64,000 bases of DNA from Dermatophagoides farinae (Eukaryota; Arthropoda; Arachnida; Sarcoptiformes; Pyroglyphidae): the NCBI RefSeq assembly GCF_024713945.1, contig NC_134680.1, positions 5,515,501 to 5,579,500 of the forward strand, read 5' to 3'. Under the pieces are notes generated by a model, which saw only the letters and a list, made by a program, of their open reading frames with translations, had not been told where the DNA came from and made no database searches. This document shows positions 12,737 to 43,618 of this stretch, piece by piece (position 1 is the first letter of the stretch; each line of letters opens with the position of its first letter). The position numbers and the translations under genes were made by a program.

Positions 12737-13548
12737 ATGATGAACAAAGTTAATGGAATCTATAGTGTTTATATTATATCGAAATCTGGTGGTTTAATCT
12801 ATAATTATGATGTTGAATCAAATTTTCCATTGACTGAAGTGGAAAAAACATTCAGTTTTCCATTGGATATTAAATTAGACTTTACTAATCAAAGATTGAC
12901 CGTTATGTTCGGTCAGCGAGATAATATTAAAGGTATGTGATGATTTATTGATCATTGATTTTTCATGATGAAACTAAAAGTTAAATATTTCTTTTCAAAG
13001 TTGGTTATTCATTATTAGCAATTAATGGTGATCCAATCGTTGGCCGTAAATATAAAGATCAAGATATTATTAATGATTTTCTTGCAAATGAAGATAATTT
13101 TCCTGTTAATCTTAAATTTGGATGGCCACGTCTCAGTACGAATGAAAAGATTGTTATGGCATCAATGTTTCATTCAATGTATGCTATAGCTGCATTACAA
13201 ATTATTCCTAAAAAATCCATTGGCAATGATAATGTTCGTAGACATTCCTGCACCGGTATTGAATATATGGAAACGAATAATTTTCGTCTCAGTTGTTTTC
13301 AAACATTGACCGGCGTAAAATTCTTGATCATAAGTGATTTACGTGAAACAACGAATAAGGATTGGTTATTGCGAAAAATCTATGAATTATATTCGGATTA
13401 TGCATTGAAAAATCCATTCTACAAACTGGATATGCCAATCCGTTGTGAATTGTTCGATTTGAATATAGCACAATTGTTGGAACAAAATGATCGTAATATG
13501 GCTGGTAGTAGTGGTGATTCATCTTCCACATCAGTAAATCATTTCTAA
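12737..13548 (+). CDS. TRAPPC4: TRAPPC4 (synbindin / Trs23) TRAPP subunit
   Basis: Exons are 12737-12932 and 13001-13548; a 68-nt intron with donor GTATGT and acceptor TTTTCAAAG splits a Val codon. The product is 247 residues (human about 219). It is a core subunit of TRAPP complexes, which activate Rab1-type GTPases on ER-Golgi and Golgi membranes. Family signatures run the length of the protein: IYSVYIISKSGGLIYNYD near the N terminus, EKTFSFPLD, FGQRDNIKVGYSLLAINGD across the splice, RLSTNEKIVMASMFHSMYAI, the FQTLTGVKF strand and LLRKIYELYSDYALKNPFY followed by DMPIRCELFD. The C-terminal 20 residues are Ser/Asn-rich and not conserved. Relative to human there are a few extra residues before GIEYME. 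ATG 12737 is first in frame and directly follows a TTTTGTAG acceptor, so a 5' UTR intron is likely; ATG 12740 is an alternative. AATAAA lies at 13600. Confidence 0.96.
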
Positions 13549-13780: not shown

Positions 13781-14236
13781 ATGGATTTCAAACCACCTTC
13801 ATCAGTAATTTTTCATACTGCAAATGGAAGAAAAATCGAAGTTACCGATGGACAAATGGCCAAAGTTCGTTCAATTTTATGGAGAAAAAATGATTCAGAT
13901 TCGAATATGAAACACATAACAGTGAATACGGACAATCGTACTCGAATGAAGACGAGTAAATATTTTTCTAATACCAATACCAATGTCTATGATAATGAAG
14001 ATAAAGAAAACATTATTGAATCATCTTCAATGATCAACAACAACAACAACAACGATGATGGTGATAATTTAATGGAAGATATCGATGATGATTTTTATGA
14101 TGACATTTTCATATCATCATCATCAATCGCTATGGACATATCGACAAAAAACGAATCGACAAAAAAACGATATTGCGAATCATCATCATCATCATCATTG
14201 CAACAAACATCATCTAAACGTAAACGTTTATCGTAA
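13781..14236 (+). CDS. Small single-BRC-repeat protein (RAD51-binding, BRCA2-like)
   Basis: A single-exon frame of 151 residues. Residues 11-33 read FHTANGRKIEVTDGQMAKVR and then SIL. This fits the BRC repeat of BRCA2 (FxTAxGKxVxVs...L.Kv..lf), including Phe11 and Ala14 that insert into RAD51 pockets and the Lys-Val pair of the helix. The rest is acidic and low-complexity, with a KEN box at 75-77 (DKENIIES), an acidic DDDFYDDIF patch at 102-110 and basic clusters at 128-130 and 146-149 (KRKR) that look like a bipartite nuclear signal. No OB-fold or helical DNA-binding domain of full BRCA2 is present. Expected role: a nuclear RAD51 regulator in homologous recombination, with cell-cycle destruction by APC/C. 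ATG 13781 is the first in frame. The gene follows TRAPPC4 by 232 bp and converges on the carboxypeptidase-like gene. The BRC match is seen directly; the function is inferred. Confidence 0.72.
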   Translation: MDFKPPSSVIFHTANGRKIEVTDGQMAKVRSILWRKNDSDSNMKHITVNTDNRTRMKTSKYFSNTNTNVYDNEDKENIIESSSMINNNNNNDDGDNLMEDIDDDFYDDIFISSSSIAMDISTKNESTKKRYCESSSSSSLQQTSSKRKRLS

Positions 14237-14324: not shown

Positions 14325-14330
14325 AATAAA
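14325..14330 (+). terminator. Poly(A) signal of the BRC-protein gene
   Basis: AATAAA is located 89 bases after the stop codon at 14236 and is followed by a T run. Confidence 0.6.
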
Positions 14331-14534: not shown

Positions 14535-17500
14535 TTATGATGAAAATGGTTCGATTGATAATGAATTGGCTGCCGATTGTATTGTATGTATCAATATGGG
14601 TAAATGTTTCTGTAGCCTTATTAATGAATGTTTTAAATCATCATCATCATCATCATCATCACCATCATCAATATTATTGAACATTGTGCCCATTAATTGA
14701 TCTAATTCATCAATAATTGCTGGAAAAAAGCCACCATCATTACCATCATAATGATGTTTAGGCATTATGGTATTAATCATTTCAGATGGTGATAGTATTA
14801 AATGTCTTTTAAGATTATTCGATGGCAGGCCACGATGATCAAGAAATTGTCGTTCAATCAATAATAATTTATCATTCAACTGTCGTACCATTAATGGACT
14901 TGATCGATTGATTGATTGAATGATTGATTAATTCCGGAAATTAGAAAAAAAATGAATAAATTGATAAGATAAAATAAATCGGAAAAAACAAACAAATGAA
15001 AACCTACTTATTCAAATCGATTTTATCCTGTCTACCATGGAATTTGATCGCTTCTTGGCTAAAATTTTTGATTGCTGATTCAAGTGATTCTAGAATGGAA
15101 AAAAACCAAAAAATGAACAACAACAAAAAAAATCGAATCAGTTCAAACAACATATACTAATACTACTCACTTAGATCTAGATCCATCATGTCAATAAATT
15201 CATTTGAATCAATCATCATTAACGATGACGACGAATTTAAATTGATTATTTCACCATTTTCAATTATTGATTCAACGATATTTCCACTATTTTTAGACAT
15301 AGACATTGATTGTTGTTGTTGTTGTTGTTGCTGACGACGTCCCATCATGATTACATTATACATATGTAAAGTTTTTACATAAAAATCTTTCAATATTTGA
15401 GCATAATCAAATAGATTGAACGGTATGAATGATGAATTGGAAAGGTTTTCGACTAGATGTACCAATATTTGTGCTATGGTTACATGATAACGATAATCAG
15501 GATCAATAAAATTTTCCAATGCTTCAATACGATCATATTGGCTATGTAATAATGGATAAGGAATATGATTCATTGTAATACGTTCGACATCTTCATTATT
15601 ATCATCATTTACATTCATTTCATCATCAATATTGATGAAACTAATATCGGCAACAGGTATACCGGCCATTGTATAGAATGGTGCATATGATCCATACATA
15701 TCTAATGGTCGTACATGTGGTCTTACTTCTTGAAATGCTGATTCTAAATATGTTTTTAGAATTGATCCCGGATCGGCTGTTTCTTGACGATGAAATTGTC
15801 GATAATTTTTATTGCCCAGTATTTCTTTTTCACTAATATCTGTCGGATTTTCAATATCAAACATTTTCATATGATTAAAAATGTTTGATTGAAATATTAA
15901 TGTTGATTTATTACGCATTTTAGGCATCGATACAATCCATTTATCATAGATTGAATTGAAATCATCTTGTTGTTTAGATGATGATGATGAAGAGGAAGAA
16001 GGTGATCGTCGTGGTAGGAATACATCTTTTGTAGCATTGAAAATTGAATGATAAAGTAATGGTGATGCAGCTACACTAAGCGTATCATTGCCATTAACCT
16101 GAATTTGGAAAATTTTTGTTTTTTTTAATAATAATTCAATTTTCAATAAGATAAATCTATACTTACGACTAGATTAACATTAATATAGGCCACAGCACGC
16201 ATATATAATATTTTATATAAATCTTCAACAAATTCTGTTGAACCAATCAGATTGAATTCTTCACCACCCCAGCTACAAAACATTAATGTTCGCCGTGGTC
16301 GCCAACCACCACCATTTGCAACCATATCACCGAATACACGTGCCATTTCCATGAATGTACCTGTACCGCTTGCCGAATCAATAGCACCCATTGTCATTGA
16401 ATCACGTTGATTACCAATAATAACATAACGATCCGGTTCATCAAATCCACGTATTGTACCGATTACATTATAAATAGTTTTTCTGACTAGTCGATTATTG
16501 ACCGATATACGAACTTTAAGATTATCCTTTAATTTAGGTCCAATACGATAGGTAAGATTAAGGCCACCTTTCCAATCATTTGGTGCAATCATTCCATCCA
16601 TATGATTGAAAATTTTTTCAGCCATCTCATAACTGATTGGTTGTGCAGGTATTGTTAGCTGTCGTTCTGGATGGAATCTATTACGATAGGCATATGAATT
16701 TGATGGCAAACCAAATGTTTCTGGATCACCGGCACCATTCCAGAATATACCATCATTTCTTATGCCATCCGATGGTAACCATAATGAATCGGGAAATGGT
16801 TTTGATTGCCGAGGATTATAATGTTGTGGATCTGGATATAATAACAATGCCGATGCATTCAATGCAGCTGCATAACGATATTGTTCACTTGCAGACAGAT
16901 GAAATTGTTTGACAAGAAAAATTTTTCCATTAAATATTTCATTACTGGTTGTATTAAATAGATTTTGTAATTGAATAAAATCAACTGGACGGCCATAATT
17001 AACGAATAATATCTCTCCAGTTATATCACCTTTTGGTGAATAAGGACTAAATGGTAAAGGCTGTTGTTGTTGTTGATTAGACGTTGAAAGTGATGAATAA
17101 ATTTCACGGCCAGATATTGAATCGACTAATGCAACAAAATTTGGTCTATTCGAATCAGGCAACGATAATAATGTGGAATAATTTTTCAATGTAACATAAT
17201 CAAAATGATTATGAATAAAATGATCACGAATTTTGTTTGCTAAATCTAAATCTTCATTTGAACTAGCCAAATGTGGTTGCCGAGAAAATTCTCGTACATT
17301 TATTCGTATATTTTCTGAACTAATACTTGCCAATAATTGTGCTCGTCTCAATGCTGAATCACCTGCAATATGCGATGATGATGATGATGAAAGATTGGCT
17401 TCATCAAACGATGATGAGATCACCTTGGTCTGTAAACAATCATTTGTATGAGATAAATGATTTGAATGGCTAAAATAACCGATTAGAAATCCAAAAATTC

Positions 17501-17841
17501 CAATACAAGCCGATATCGATAAAATCAATATGATTGAACGTTTATTACGATAAACATGATACGGAATGGTTTCGGTTGTTTTTTCATAAATCTGTATGGC
17601 TGGTTCATGTTCAGGCCAGCCATTATGATCAACATCGGTACATTCTTCGTCTTTTTTTTTGTTGTCAATATTGTAAATATGGTCGAATATGGTTGCACAA
17701 TGTCAATGTCAATCGATAAGATAATGATATGTGGTGGATAAGAAAAATGTATAATAAAATAAAATCAATCAATCAAAAGAATATTCTTTATTACAAATTT
17801 AATTTACCTCGATATGGACGATATTGAGCTGTCAATGTCAT
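14535..17841 (-). CDS. Glutamate carboxypeptidase II/NAALADase-like, probable pseudo-peptidase
   Basis: Five exons on the minus strand: 17841-17808, 17650-16167, 16098-15171, 15089-15008 and 14898-14535, all GT...AG with compatible phases, giving 963 residues (human GCPII 750). Order: a 49-residue cytoplasmic tail, a TM anchor (about 50-71), a protease-associated region, an M28B peptidase domain and a TfR-like dimerisation domain. YVIIGNQRDSM (Q426), AIDSASG (D436), CSWGGEEFNL (E475, E476), AYINVN (N504) and YPLLHSQYD (H691) align with human H377, D387, E424/E425, D453 and H553. Both private Zn1 ligands, H377 and D453, are replaced (Gln, Asn), while the bridging Asp, both Zn2 ligands and the general base remain. 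Catalysis is therefore doubtful; transferrin receptors are family members that lost catalysis. Low-complexity insertions include poly-Ser at about 540, an acidic loop at about 663-676 and poly-Gln at about 762. The N-terminal exon assignment is inferred from splice sites. Confidence 0.9.
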
Positions 17842-40399: not shown

Positions 40400-43300
40400 T
40401 CAAGCACTATGCGATGATGATGAGGCAGGACTACTATGATTTTCTAGATTTGTTGGAACATTAGATGAATCAATTGTTGTTGAATCTTTTTCATCGATCA
40501 TCATTGATGATGGTGGTGATGATGGCGATGATGTATCACCATTCGATTTATTATTCATTTGTTCATTATTGTTTTTATGATTGAGATGTTGATGATGGTT
40601 ATGATGATTATCACCATCATCAACATCATTGGCTGTTGTTGATGATTCTAATTTCATCATTGGTTCATCATTATTCGCTGACATTGTATCACCATCTGGT
40701 AGATCAGCATCGGTTGTAACTGATCCATCCATCTCTAAATCATCATTACCATAATCATCCATATCATCACCACCGATAGCATCATTTGTATTATCATTAT
40801 CCATTTCGGATTCACTTTTATTTGATTTTTCACTTGCATCACTCGAACCTTTTGATGAATGTCCCGATTTACGATTAGCAAAATTTGCTATCGATACATA
40901 TGATTGTAATGCTGCAGCTTCCGCTGAACCTGGTGATGTGCCTGATCCCATTGGCATATTAGCAACAGCAGTTCGTACCTTTGCACTAGCTAATGCAGCT
41001 AATTGTCTATTGATTTCGGCCAATGCTGGTGTATTACGCATCTGATGTATGTCACGATAATGTTTCATTAATGATTTTCGCCACGTATATTCTTTATTGC
41101 ATATATTACAGATATAAATCTGTTCTTCACGATTTGAATGGAAATAATCCATATGTTCTTTCAATGTTTGTTTATTACCATAGTATTTATTACAAATGTC
41201 ACATTTCCATTTACTTCCAACCCAACTGCCGCCCGAAGCGGCTGCTGCACTACTTCCACCTCCACCACCGCCCGAAGCGGATGCAGATGATGTAGATGAT
41301 GATGGTGATGATGCGGAAGGATGATTTGGTCCAGGAGGCGTTGTTTTTATTGATGGTGAAAATGAAGAGAATAATTGTGATTTTTCACTAGACGGTACAC
41401 TTGATGAACGAACACTATTATTATGTTTTTTCGGTGGTACAATATCAACTGTTGTACCAGCTGGTGATGATGATGATGGTGGATTGGAATTATGATGATG
41501 CATTAATGGTGATGATGGCTTAATAGATACATCAATACTATTGTTAAGAGCAACGGAAACTGCATTTGAATTCGGTAATTTCATTCGTTTATTATTTTCA
41601 TTATTCATTCGATTATTATCATTTCCACTTGTGGAACCTGTTGAATATGGTGGTTTAAATGTACGTCGTCTTTTCTGTTGTGATGAAGATGATTGTGATG
41701 ATGATGATTGTGGCTGTGTTTGTTGTAAGGGTGATGGTGATTGATCATTATAATCAGAAAATGATGGTATAATTGTTGGATCAGCTTCAACTTCAATCAT
41801 ACATGGTACTTGTGGAGCAAACGGTGATGGAACAATCGATCCGAATGGTAATGATTGTTGTTTGGAATCTATACTTGTCGTTGACATATTATCACCTATC
41901 GTACTATTGCAATCATTTGAACTATCATCTTTAATAATTAAACGTTTATCATCATCATTTTCATCAAGATCGTCATCATCGTCTTCTTCAGAATTTAGAT
42001 TTAAAAATGTATTATATAATGCAGCTGCTGATGTACCTTGTGGTAGCATTTGATCTAAACTTGATGCAAGTGCTAATGCAGCTTGTGCTGAATGTATGTT
42101 GGTTGGAAATTTTTGTTTACGTCTACTACCACCACCGGATGATGAAATTGAAGAATTTGATGAATCAAAACGATTATTTACTGAAGGTGGTGGTGGTGGT
42201 GGCGGTGGAACAATATTATTATTGAATAAAGCAAATGCAGCCGCCGCCGCTGCTGCTTGACCATTATTATAGATACTTTTCGGTGTACTACTTTGATGTG
42301 CTGGCGTTAGATTAGCTGTTGTTGAGCCTAATATCGATGATTCATTACGTAATGATGGTGACTGATCCCGTTGTTGTTTATTACCGCTTGTTGGTACGAC
42401 TAAATTATTTCGATATTGACTTAATAATAATTGATTGCTCATTCCATTTAGAAATTTATTTATATGATGATTATGATGTTGTTGTTGATGATGATGATGA
42501 TTACCATTCGGTAATGATGATGAACTTTGATTATGATTGTGATGATGATTATTATGATGGTTACTATTATTTCTATGTTCATAATGATGAGAATGATGAT
42601 GATGATTATGGTGATTCGGTGTAACGGTCGGTGTGGTCATCGCTTTCAATGATGCTAATGATGAATTCATCATTGTTGGTGGTGATGGTGGTGGTGAATT
42701 AACACCAACTGTATGTCCATTCAACAGGTTAGCGGCAGCAGCAGCAGCGGCAGCTGCGGCCGATGTTTTTATTGAAAAGCCATTATTTTTGGCATTATTA
42801 GTACCGGTGGTGGTTGTGTTTGCTGATGGTGGTGCACCGGAAATCACTTCAATACCACTATCACTGATAGAATCTTCATTATTTGTTGTCGAGGTTGTTG
42901 TTGTTGTTGTACCATTATTATTGAATACAATGTTCACATTGGAGAGACCTTTTATATTGAGCAAACGTGCAGAACGAAGAAATGATTCAATAGAATCGAC
43001 TTTCACTTCAACATGACCATCATATATAAATCTTAATATAGCTTCCATGTCGGTCATTTTAATTTCCGTTGGTAATATCATGACTGTATTACAATTATTA
43101 CAACCACCACTACCGGTACCACCATTACCGGAACCGCCTAAAGAAATAATATCGTTGTTATTATTGTAAAATGAACTTAATGCATCACGAATATAAAGAG
43201 AGGCGGCTGCCATCACAACACGATGACATTTGAACATTCTTCCCGGACAACAGATGACCAAATCGGTGAATAGACCATTGGCCAATAATGAACTTAATGA

Positions 43301-43618
43301 TTCAAATGATTCTAGATCATTTCCTTTACGAAAACTAACAGTTTTTTCGCCATTATTTTGATCAGTGTTTGATTTATTTGTTGATCCCATCATTGATGAT
43401 GATGATGATGATGATTGTAATGATGGCAGATGTCTTGATTTGGATGTTGTTGTCATGGATGAAGATGATAATGATCCAATACCACCACCAATACCATTAC
43501 ATAATGAATTTTTATTGGATGATCCTGTTGAGCATGAAATTTGCTGCTCAAATGCAGCAGAAAATTTGGACTCCAATGAAGTTTCCATTTGTGGCGCTGT
43601 TAATGACGATGTATGCAT
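40400..43618 (-). CDS. BTB/POZ-C2H2 zinc-finger regulator
   Basis: One uninterrupted frame of 1072 residues. A BTB domain spans about residues 100-225: LLANGLFTDLVICCPGRMFK, CHRVVMAAASLYIRD, then ILRFIYDGHVEV and FLRSARLLNIKGL. A Gly/Asn/Ser-rich insertion of about 30 residues (about 150-182) separates the dimer helix from the next strand. Two tandem C2H2 fingers lie at about 803-855, starting WKCDICNKYYG and YICNICNKEYTW, with C-x2-C-x12-H-x4-H spacing and a short linker as in tramtrack-type proteins. Long Ser, Asn, His, Gln, Ala (about 285), Pro (about 470) and acidic tracts fill the rest. The expected role is a nuclear sequence-specific repressor or developmental regulator. An in-frame TAG lies six codons before ATG 43618, supporting this start, although ATATTAG there could also be an acceptor from a non-coding exon. 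The exact orthologue is not recognised. Many plus-strand frames here are shadows. Confidence 0.9.
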   Translation of the reverse strand: MHTSSLTAPQMETSLESKFSAAFEQQISCSTGSSNKNSLCNGIGGGIGSLSSSSMTTTSKSRHLPSLQSSSSSSSMMGSTNKSNTDQNNGEKTVSFRKGNDLESFESLSSLLANGLFTDLVICCPGRMFKCHRVVMAAASLYIRDALSSFYNNNNDIISLGGSGNGGTGSGGCNNCNTVMILPTEIKMTDMEAILRFIYDGHVEVKVDSIESFLRSARLLNIKGLSNVNIVFNNNGTTTTTTSTTNNEDSISDSGIEVISGAPPSANTTTTGTNNAKNNGFSIKTSAAAAAAAAAANLLNGHTVGVNSPPPSPPTMMNSSLASLKAMTTPTVTPNHHNHHHHSHHYEHRNNSNHHNNHHHNHNQSSSSLPNGNHHHHQQQHHNHHINKFLNGMSNQLLLSQYRNNLVVPTSGNKQQRDQSPSLRNESSILGSTTANLTPAHQSSTPKSIYNNGQAAAAAAAFALFNNNIVPPPPPPPPSVNNRFDSSNSSISSSGGGSRRKQKFPTNIHSAQAALALASSLDQMLPQGTSAAALYNTFLNLNSEEDDDDDLDENDDDKRLIIKDDSSNDCNSTIGDNMSTTSIDSKQQSLPFGSIVPSPFAPQVPCMIEVEADPTIIPSFSDYNDQSPSPLQQTQPQSSSSQSSSSQQKRRRTFKPPYSTGSTSGNDNNRMNNENNKRMKLPNSNAVSVALNNSIDVSIKPSSPLMHHHNSNPPSSSSPAGTTVDIVPPKKHNNSVRSSSVPSSEKSQLFSSFSPSIKTTPPGPNHPSASSPSSSTSSASASGGGGGGSSAAAASGGSWVGSKWKCDICNKYYGNKQTLKEHMDYFHSNREEQIYICNICNKEYTWRKSLMKHYRDIHQMRNTPALAEINRQLAALASAKVRTAVANMPMGSGTSPGSAEAAALQSYVSIANFANRKSGHSSKGSSDASEKSNKSESEMDNDNTNDAIGGDDMDDYGNDDLEMDGSVTTDADLPDGDTMSANNDEPMMKLESSTTANDVDDGDNHHNHHQHLNHKNNNEQMNNKSNGDTSSPSSPPSSMMIDEKDSTTIDSSNVPTNLENHSSPASSSSHSA

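Follow-up and report, generated by a model that had tools for sequence, protein, structure and literature searches.

The question raised by this locus of Dermatophagoides farinae is whether a short open frame encodes a minimal partner of the recombinase RAD51. The window analysed is a stretch of 64,000 nucleotides (C4:5515501-5579500), and the genome searched is its 62.4-Mb assembly of 22 contigs. In line with the species, a group-21 allergen exon of this contig agrees with Der f 21 of PDB at all 111 residues from 8 to 118 of the 118 searched. The original prediction had described a 151-residue protein with a BRC repeat near the N-terminus, no other BRCA2 domain, a KEN box and a basic C-terminal nuclear signal. 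As judged from its sequence, the product of 13781-14236 seems, on balance, to be a BRC-type RAD51-binding protein with the anatomy set out below.

The frame and its translation were found as claimed. The gene and its surroundings on the plus strand are as follows.

12737..13548, plus strand: upstream TRAPPC4-like gene with one short intron (~68 bases, read from the sequence); Sybindin match in the second exon
13781..14236, plus strand: open reading frame of the BRC gene, 151 amino acids and a stop, apparently a single exon (sequence)
14325..14330, plus strand: poly(A) signal AATAAA, ~90 bases past the stop of the BRC gene (sequence)

Around the start codon of the frame, position -3 is A and position +4 is G. 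The second exon of the TRAPPC4-like gene matches Sybindin with E 1.6e-40 (Pfam), and this gene possesses its own AATAAA at ~13600, ~180 bases upstream of the BRC frame; the BRC gene is therefore not a continuation of TRAPPC4. On the downstream side, the minus-strand frame 16143-17528 contains a peptidase M28 domain (Pfam, E 2.5e-14), and a PA domain there stayed below its cut-off. This downstream gene reads as convergent, its exons nearest the BRC frame being read from translations. The coding score of the BRC frame was 0.245 against an intergenic mean of -0.154 (sd 0.105), and none of 3000 intergenic samples reached it, with a training set of eight long window frames of which four have no Pfam family. 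On synonymous codons alone, 2.1% of the intergenic samples reached the value of the frame. One antisense frame scores 0.232 on codons, and the open stretches of the minus strand inside the frame are at most 58 codons long. Thirty order-2 simulated windows gave four open frames of 186 codons or more, and the real window has ten; since the simulations give some long frames, length alone is suggestive and not decisive. We regard 13781-14236 as very probably a real, self-contained gene. Elsewhere in the window, the minus strand holds a single open frame of 1072 amino acids at 40400-43618, two stretches of which make up a BTB/POZ domain.

The BRC-like match near the N-terminus was also confirmed. 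The whole protein was searched by phmmer against 177,635 distinct PDB sequences, and the sole match at E<=10 was human BRC4 (1n0w_B, E 0.21). The parts of the repeat are listed here.

13790..13888, plus strand: BRC-type repeat, residues 4-36, without gaps against human BRC4 1517-1549 (alignment, PDB search)
13811..13822, plus strand: FxxA motif FHTA, residues 11-14, same as the FHTA of BRC4 (alignment)
13874..13885, plus strand: LFDE-equivalent tetrad ILWR, residues 32-35, with the hydrophobic pair retained and the acidic end gone (alignment)

Residues 4-36 are identical to human BRC4 at 11 of 33 positions and BLOSUM62-positive at 22 of 33, with no gaps. The FxxA motif is followed by a TASGK-type turn, the stretch FHTANGRK aligning gap-free with BRC4. 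Phe11, Thr13, Ala14 and Gly16 are retained; in the turn region Thr, Gly and the second Lys are kept, with Ser replaced by Asn and Lys by Arg. The residues named as BRC4 interface residues, Ile1534, Leu1539, Val1542, Leu1545 and Phe1546 (PMC9162458), correspond to Val21, Met26, Val29, Ile32 and Leu33, all of them hydrophobic. At the acidic end of LFDE, Arg35 stands at the position of BRC4 Glu1548.

The protein was modelled by AlphaFold from the single sequence. The mean pLDDT was 49.9 overall; the highest blocks (69, 76, 68 and 61) lie within residues 1-40, and values are below 50 at residues 51-94, 98-102 and 108-146. The most confident part contains strands at 8-12 and 18-22 and a helix at 23-28. 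BRC4 forms a hairpin and a helix from Lys1536, which corresponds to residue 23, and the predicted topology appears otherwise alike. The mite model also has strands at 31-34 and 44-47, whereas BRC4 is helical to 1548, equivalent to residue 35. The predicted BRC-like fold may be network memory of BRC4.

The strength of the match depends on the measure used. Scored without gaps over 33 columns against seven human BRC repeats, with the letters that we take these repeats to have, the mite repeat reached 30.1 and the runner-up among the 25,937 33-mers of the window 8.0; this measure was picked post hoc, when the match was already known. The human repeats, each left out in turn, score 38-56. By exact convolution the chance per position of the mite score is 1.2e-9 to 6.1e-9, according to composition, and the expected chance matches are 0.006-0.033 per proteome of an assumed 5.4 million residues and 0.10-0.51 per six-frame genome. 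With a local HMM the match scored 12.1 bits, exceeded by one of 20,000 shuffles, and with the same profile four non-BRC sequences among the 177,635 of PDB reached 12.4-13.2 bits. The local-profile score is at database noise, and its significance is modest. The Pfam scan of the 151-residue protein reported no family, PF00634 included, and in this respect the claim that no other BRCA2 domain is present was borne out. The location of the BRC gene was absent from the matches of the PF00634 profile over the whole genome and was missed by human BRC4 as a genome-wide query, indicating that such searches are insensitive for so short a motif. Residues 1-42 as genome query returned only their own locus. 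The whole protein gave 86 pattern stretches against GTDB genomes and 22 against viral contigs, with no relative in either.

The mite RAD51 was located at C2:553399-554070 and adjoining exons, and is 73% identical to the human protein over 225 residues. Its binding sites were compared at positions which, except for 205 and 251, we assume to be those of the Phe pocket, the Ala pocket and the LFDE site. The Phe pocket is identical to human at six of seven positions (Met158 to Leu) and the Ala pocket at three of five (Leu171 to Phe, Val189 to Ile), and all three non-identical residues are hydrophobic. The LFDE site is identical at seven of nine positions, with Tyr205 replaced by Ile and Ser208 by Ala; as Met251 and arginines 250 and 254 are retained, the site is not simply gone. 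In Leishmania, RAD51 with Tyr205 to Leu and Met251 to Ser is described as having a shallow pocket; the LFDE-equivalent tetrad is dispensable there, and LiBRC1 binds this RAD51 without an LFDE module (PMC9162458). Because Leishmania has Leu at 205 along with LFDE-independent binding, the Ile of the mite fits the degenerate ILWR. A second recombinase, on contig C2 near 5832820-5833706, reads as DMC1-like. RAD51-like frames were also seen on two small contigs, C11 and C20, which are gene-dense and intron-poor and, from their frames only, look like contaminant or symbiont DNA, possibly microsporidian. The frames of these contigs include a 351-residue intronless RAD51-family protein (C11:526000-529725), two more RAD51-like proteins, an AAA ATPase of the proteasome type and an FH2 region of a formin.

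The tail of the protein carries three elements.

14003..14011, plus strand: KEN tripeptide, residues 75-77, in the context DKEN (sequence)
14054..14110, plus strand: acidic and hydrophobic segment DDGDNLMEDIDDDFYDDIF, residues 92-110, which we infer from the sequence to be a candidate RPA70N-type or DSS1-like contact
14162..14227, plus strand: candidate nuclear signal formed by the basic clusters KKR (128-130) and KRKR (146-149) (sequence)

The predicted KEN tripeptide is present, but 6.8% of 50,000 composition shuffles contain KEN and 1.1% contain [DE]KEN; it is weak evidence, too weak to build on. Sororin and securin are KEN-box proteins and were considered as identities, the Pfam scan of the protein having reported no family. 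For the basic C-terminal cluster, a candidate nuclear signal, K[KR]x[KR] occurs in the last 15 residues of 1.8% of 50,000 shuffles. Overall the protein carries a net charge of -3 and is not strongly basic. A 33-residue piece holding the acidic segment matched nothing in PDB at E<=10. RPA70N-binding motifs are described as ~20 residues long, acidic plus hydrophobic, with little shared sequence (PMC10479964, PMC5457501), and residues 92-110 appear to resemble them in composition only.

Other genes of the pathway were searched for genome-wide. A search for another BRCA2 with OB folds had been proposed with the original prediction, and was run with the OB1, helical and OB3 models. The OB1 and helical models (PF09103 and PF09169) found nothing at E<=10, and OB3 (PF09104) gave a single match of E 2.3 on another contig; none of 14 control genomes was positive for any of these models. 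As the controls were all silent, the absence of a canonical BRCA2 DNA-binding domain from D. farinae is suggested only. PALB2_WD40 gave a single match of E 0.5, also with none of the 14 control genomes positive. RAD52 was not found, and two of the 14 control genomes were positive for it, both bacterial.

BRC repeats hold RAD51 monomers by mimicking the RAD51 self-assembly motif. From its letters and those of its partner, the mite repeat is likely to bind RAD51. The one-exon gene would give a nuclear, largely disordered protein of 151 residues in which the N-terminal ~35 residues form the BRC repeat. Phe11 and Ala14 would fill the FxxA pockets of RAD51, and the TANGR turn with the following strand and helix would place Val21, Met26, Val29, Ile32 and Leu33 on the RAD51 ATPase domain, RAD51 being kept monomeric by the repeat. 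The protein could then ferry RAD51 into the nucleus and pass it to RPA-coated ssDNA, with the disordered acidic and basic tail touching RPA or ssDNA, and KEN might serve timed removal. Given RAD51 binding, a mediator is slightly favoured over an antagonist that sequesters RAD51, because no convincing BRCA2 DNA-binding domain or other BRC protein was found. In a more specific form, which we consider doubtful, the protein would be a micro-BRCA2 that packs mediator function into 151 residues with one BRC repeat, a short acidic and hydrophobic segment acting as RPA contact or DSS1-like DNA mimic, and a nuclear signal, its RAD51 (Tyr205 to Ile) being adapted to a BRC repeat without the full LFDE module.

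The loading step accounts for a little over half of the confidence placed in binding, so the first rival overlaps with this explanation. It says that the protein is a BRC-type RAD51 antagonist or monomer chaperone which keeps RAD51 off DNA or dismantles filaments and does no loading, with removal by APC/C through KEN as a possible addition. In the worm germline, the isolated BRC repeat of BRC-2 is reported to strip RAD-51 from ssDNA, filaments being stabilised by the separate TR2 region (PMC8683258), and on this precedent the mite protein would be an antagonist. The BRC-RPA fusions, the mouse BRCA2 with one repeat and the moss BRCA2 described below are precedents for the mediator. The lack of a folded DNA-binding part and the negative charge, unlike that of an obvious DNA binder, point in the same direction. 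However, if the mite has no other BRCA2, for which the controls are weak, RAD51 and the DMC1-like protein would be left without the usual mediator, and the KEN evidence is weak. An antagonist is rated unlikely.

A chance resemblance, rated equally unlikely, would make the product another kind of small, disordered protein, nuclear or of the cell cycle, with an N-terminus that is BRC-like by accident. BRC look-alikes are indeed present in the assembly. The core pattern F-x-[T/S and others]-A-x-G-[K/R/Q]-x-[I/V/M] occurs at 17 places, the BRC gene and 16 others; as its reversed control matches 25 places, the core by itself is no rarity. Five matches were found genome-wide with PF00634. The best (C1:1300639-1300689) lies in a Lys/Arg/Ser-rich frame of 571 residues (901-2613 of the piece of C1 examined) and shows the second half of a BRC repeat cleanly, SVSLSKTSIQRARQLF, with Arg and Glu in place of the Phe and Ala of FxxA. 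This half-repeat was over the Pfam cut-off in the genome search, together with its neighbours, but fell short of it in the protein scan (16.0 bits; cut-off 20.3); with FxxA absent and the protein score below cut-off, it was judged a probable chance match. Human BRC4 had one match in the genome, of 20.7 bits, in a minus-strand frame at C20:238216-238299. Here FFTQAGKKVQVLKEKIDSAEKLF belongs to a stretch that aligns with 28 residues of the BRC4 query at 46% identity; the frame was rejected as a BRC protein since it reads as a formin FH2 region on a contaminant-like contig. The resemblance of the formin FFTQAGKKVQVLKEKIDSAEKLF to BRC4 cautions that chance can produce BRC look-alikes, and a local profile score within database noise adds to it. 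Against this, the BRC gene alone continues as BRC among the 17 core matches, with 11.5 bits by HMM and 5.5 for the next among the 16 rows listed. Its ungapped score of 30.1 compares with 17.7 for the C1 half-repeat and at most 9.0 for the other core matches long enough to score, the formin lying outside that scoring. The PDB search of the protein, moreover, returned BRC4 alone. No second repeat with this core was seen genome-wide, which speaks against a multi-repeat BRCA2 with this core, the pattern being one that misses repeats lacking the T/S-type residue, G or I/V/M, and those in which the arginine is encoded by CGY.

It is very improbable that the frame is a fragment or exon of a larger BRCA2 with its remaining exons elsewhere. 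The frame is open upstream from 13676 to the ATG, where a spliced 5' exon might join, but it is bounded by the TRAPPC4-like gene with its AATAAA upstream, by a stop and AATAAA downstream and by a next gene that reads as convergent, and the domain models found nothing genome-wide for OB1 and helical and only E 2.3 on another contig for OB3.

BRC proteins are a kind already known, and fly and moss have BRCA2 proteins that lack the canonical domain. By its size, its single repeat and its apparently missing partners the mite protein would be the most reduced example that we know of. Among the matches listed in a literature search, no title was on a BRC protein this small, and Dermatophagoides with BRCA2 returned only allergy and lung disease (title, abstract). 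If the protein binds RAD51 and is the sole BRC protein of the mite, it would push down the known minimum size of natural mediators of the BRCA2 type; an animal could then do without OB folds, without several repeats and without PALB2, and the minimum for RAD51 loading would become directly testable. As an antagonist, the protein would instead be a natural RAD51 inhibitor made of a free-standing BRC.

No helical, OB1-OB3 or tower family of canonical BRCA2 was reported for the 151-residue protein, and what it offers for comparison with the non-canonical BRCA2 of moss and fly is one BRC-like repeat and a basic C-terminus. Lacking the canonical domains, and at most a candidate for the non-canonical kind, it is not filed here as a BRCA2 orthologue; its mode of action is probably that of a RAD51 partner of the BRC type. 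Its gap-free match of 33 residues shares with human BRC4 the identical FHTA and the hydrophobic register, while BRC4 ends LFDE with acidic residues where the mite has WR, and the rest of the mite protein contains no Pfam domain. Human BRCA2 carries eight repeats in 3418 residues (PMC3240595 for the length), against one in 151. Human BRCA2 peptides can function without the DNA-binding domain through PALB2 binding (PMC3240595); in the mite no PALB2 partner for such a route is visible, a point against the loading model. Mouse BRCA2 with one BRC repeat is reported to support viability (PMC12803100, preprint).

C. elegans had been offered as an example of a single-BRC protein. Its BRC-2 is indeed a reduced protein with a single BRC, but it retains TR2 and one OB fold (PMC8683258), and no OB family was reported in the Pfam scan of the mite protein. 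The two-repeat protozoan BRCA2 of Leishmania resembles the mite in LiBRC1, where FxxA is dominant and the LFDE-equivalent degenerate, and in a RAD51 whose residue 205 is not Tyr, and differs in an extended N-terminal hairpin and a RAD51 without Met251 (PMC9162458). The BRCA2 proteins of moss and Drosophila are closer parallels than BRC-2. The Drosophila protein is much larger, ~970 residues. It is, like that of the mite, an arthropod protein described as lacking the canonical DNA-binding domain (PMC12412785), although it has three known BRC repeats (PMC3924952). BRCA2 of Physcomitrium patens shares with the mite protein a single exon, small size, BRC sequence with a disordered region and a nuclear signal (a candidate in the mite), and no DNA-binding domain (PMC12412785). 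It is, however, more than twice the size at 391 residues, with four C-terminal BRCs and demonstrated binding of ssDNA and RAD51; ssDNA is reportedly bound through the disordered region, and the protein is essential for repair (PMC12412785). Recombination is supported by engineered BRC-RPA fusions that retain as little as 2% of BRCA2; a single BRC and an ssDNA tether can suffice (PMC3240595). The tether is a covalent RPA fusion in those constructs and hypothetical in the mite, whose protein, if the micro-BRCA2 reading is true, would be their natural counterpart.
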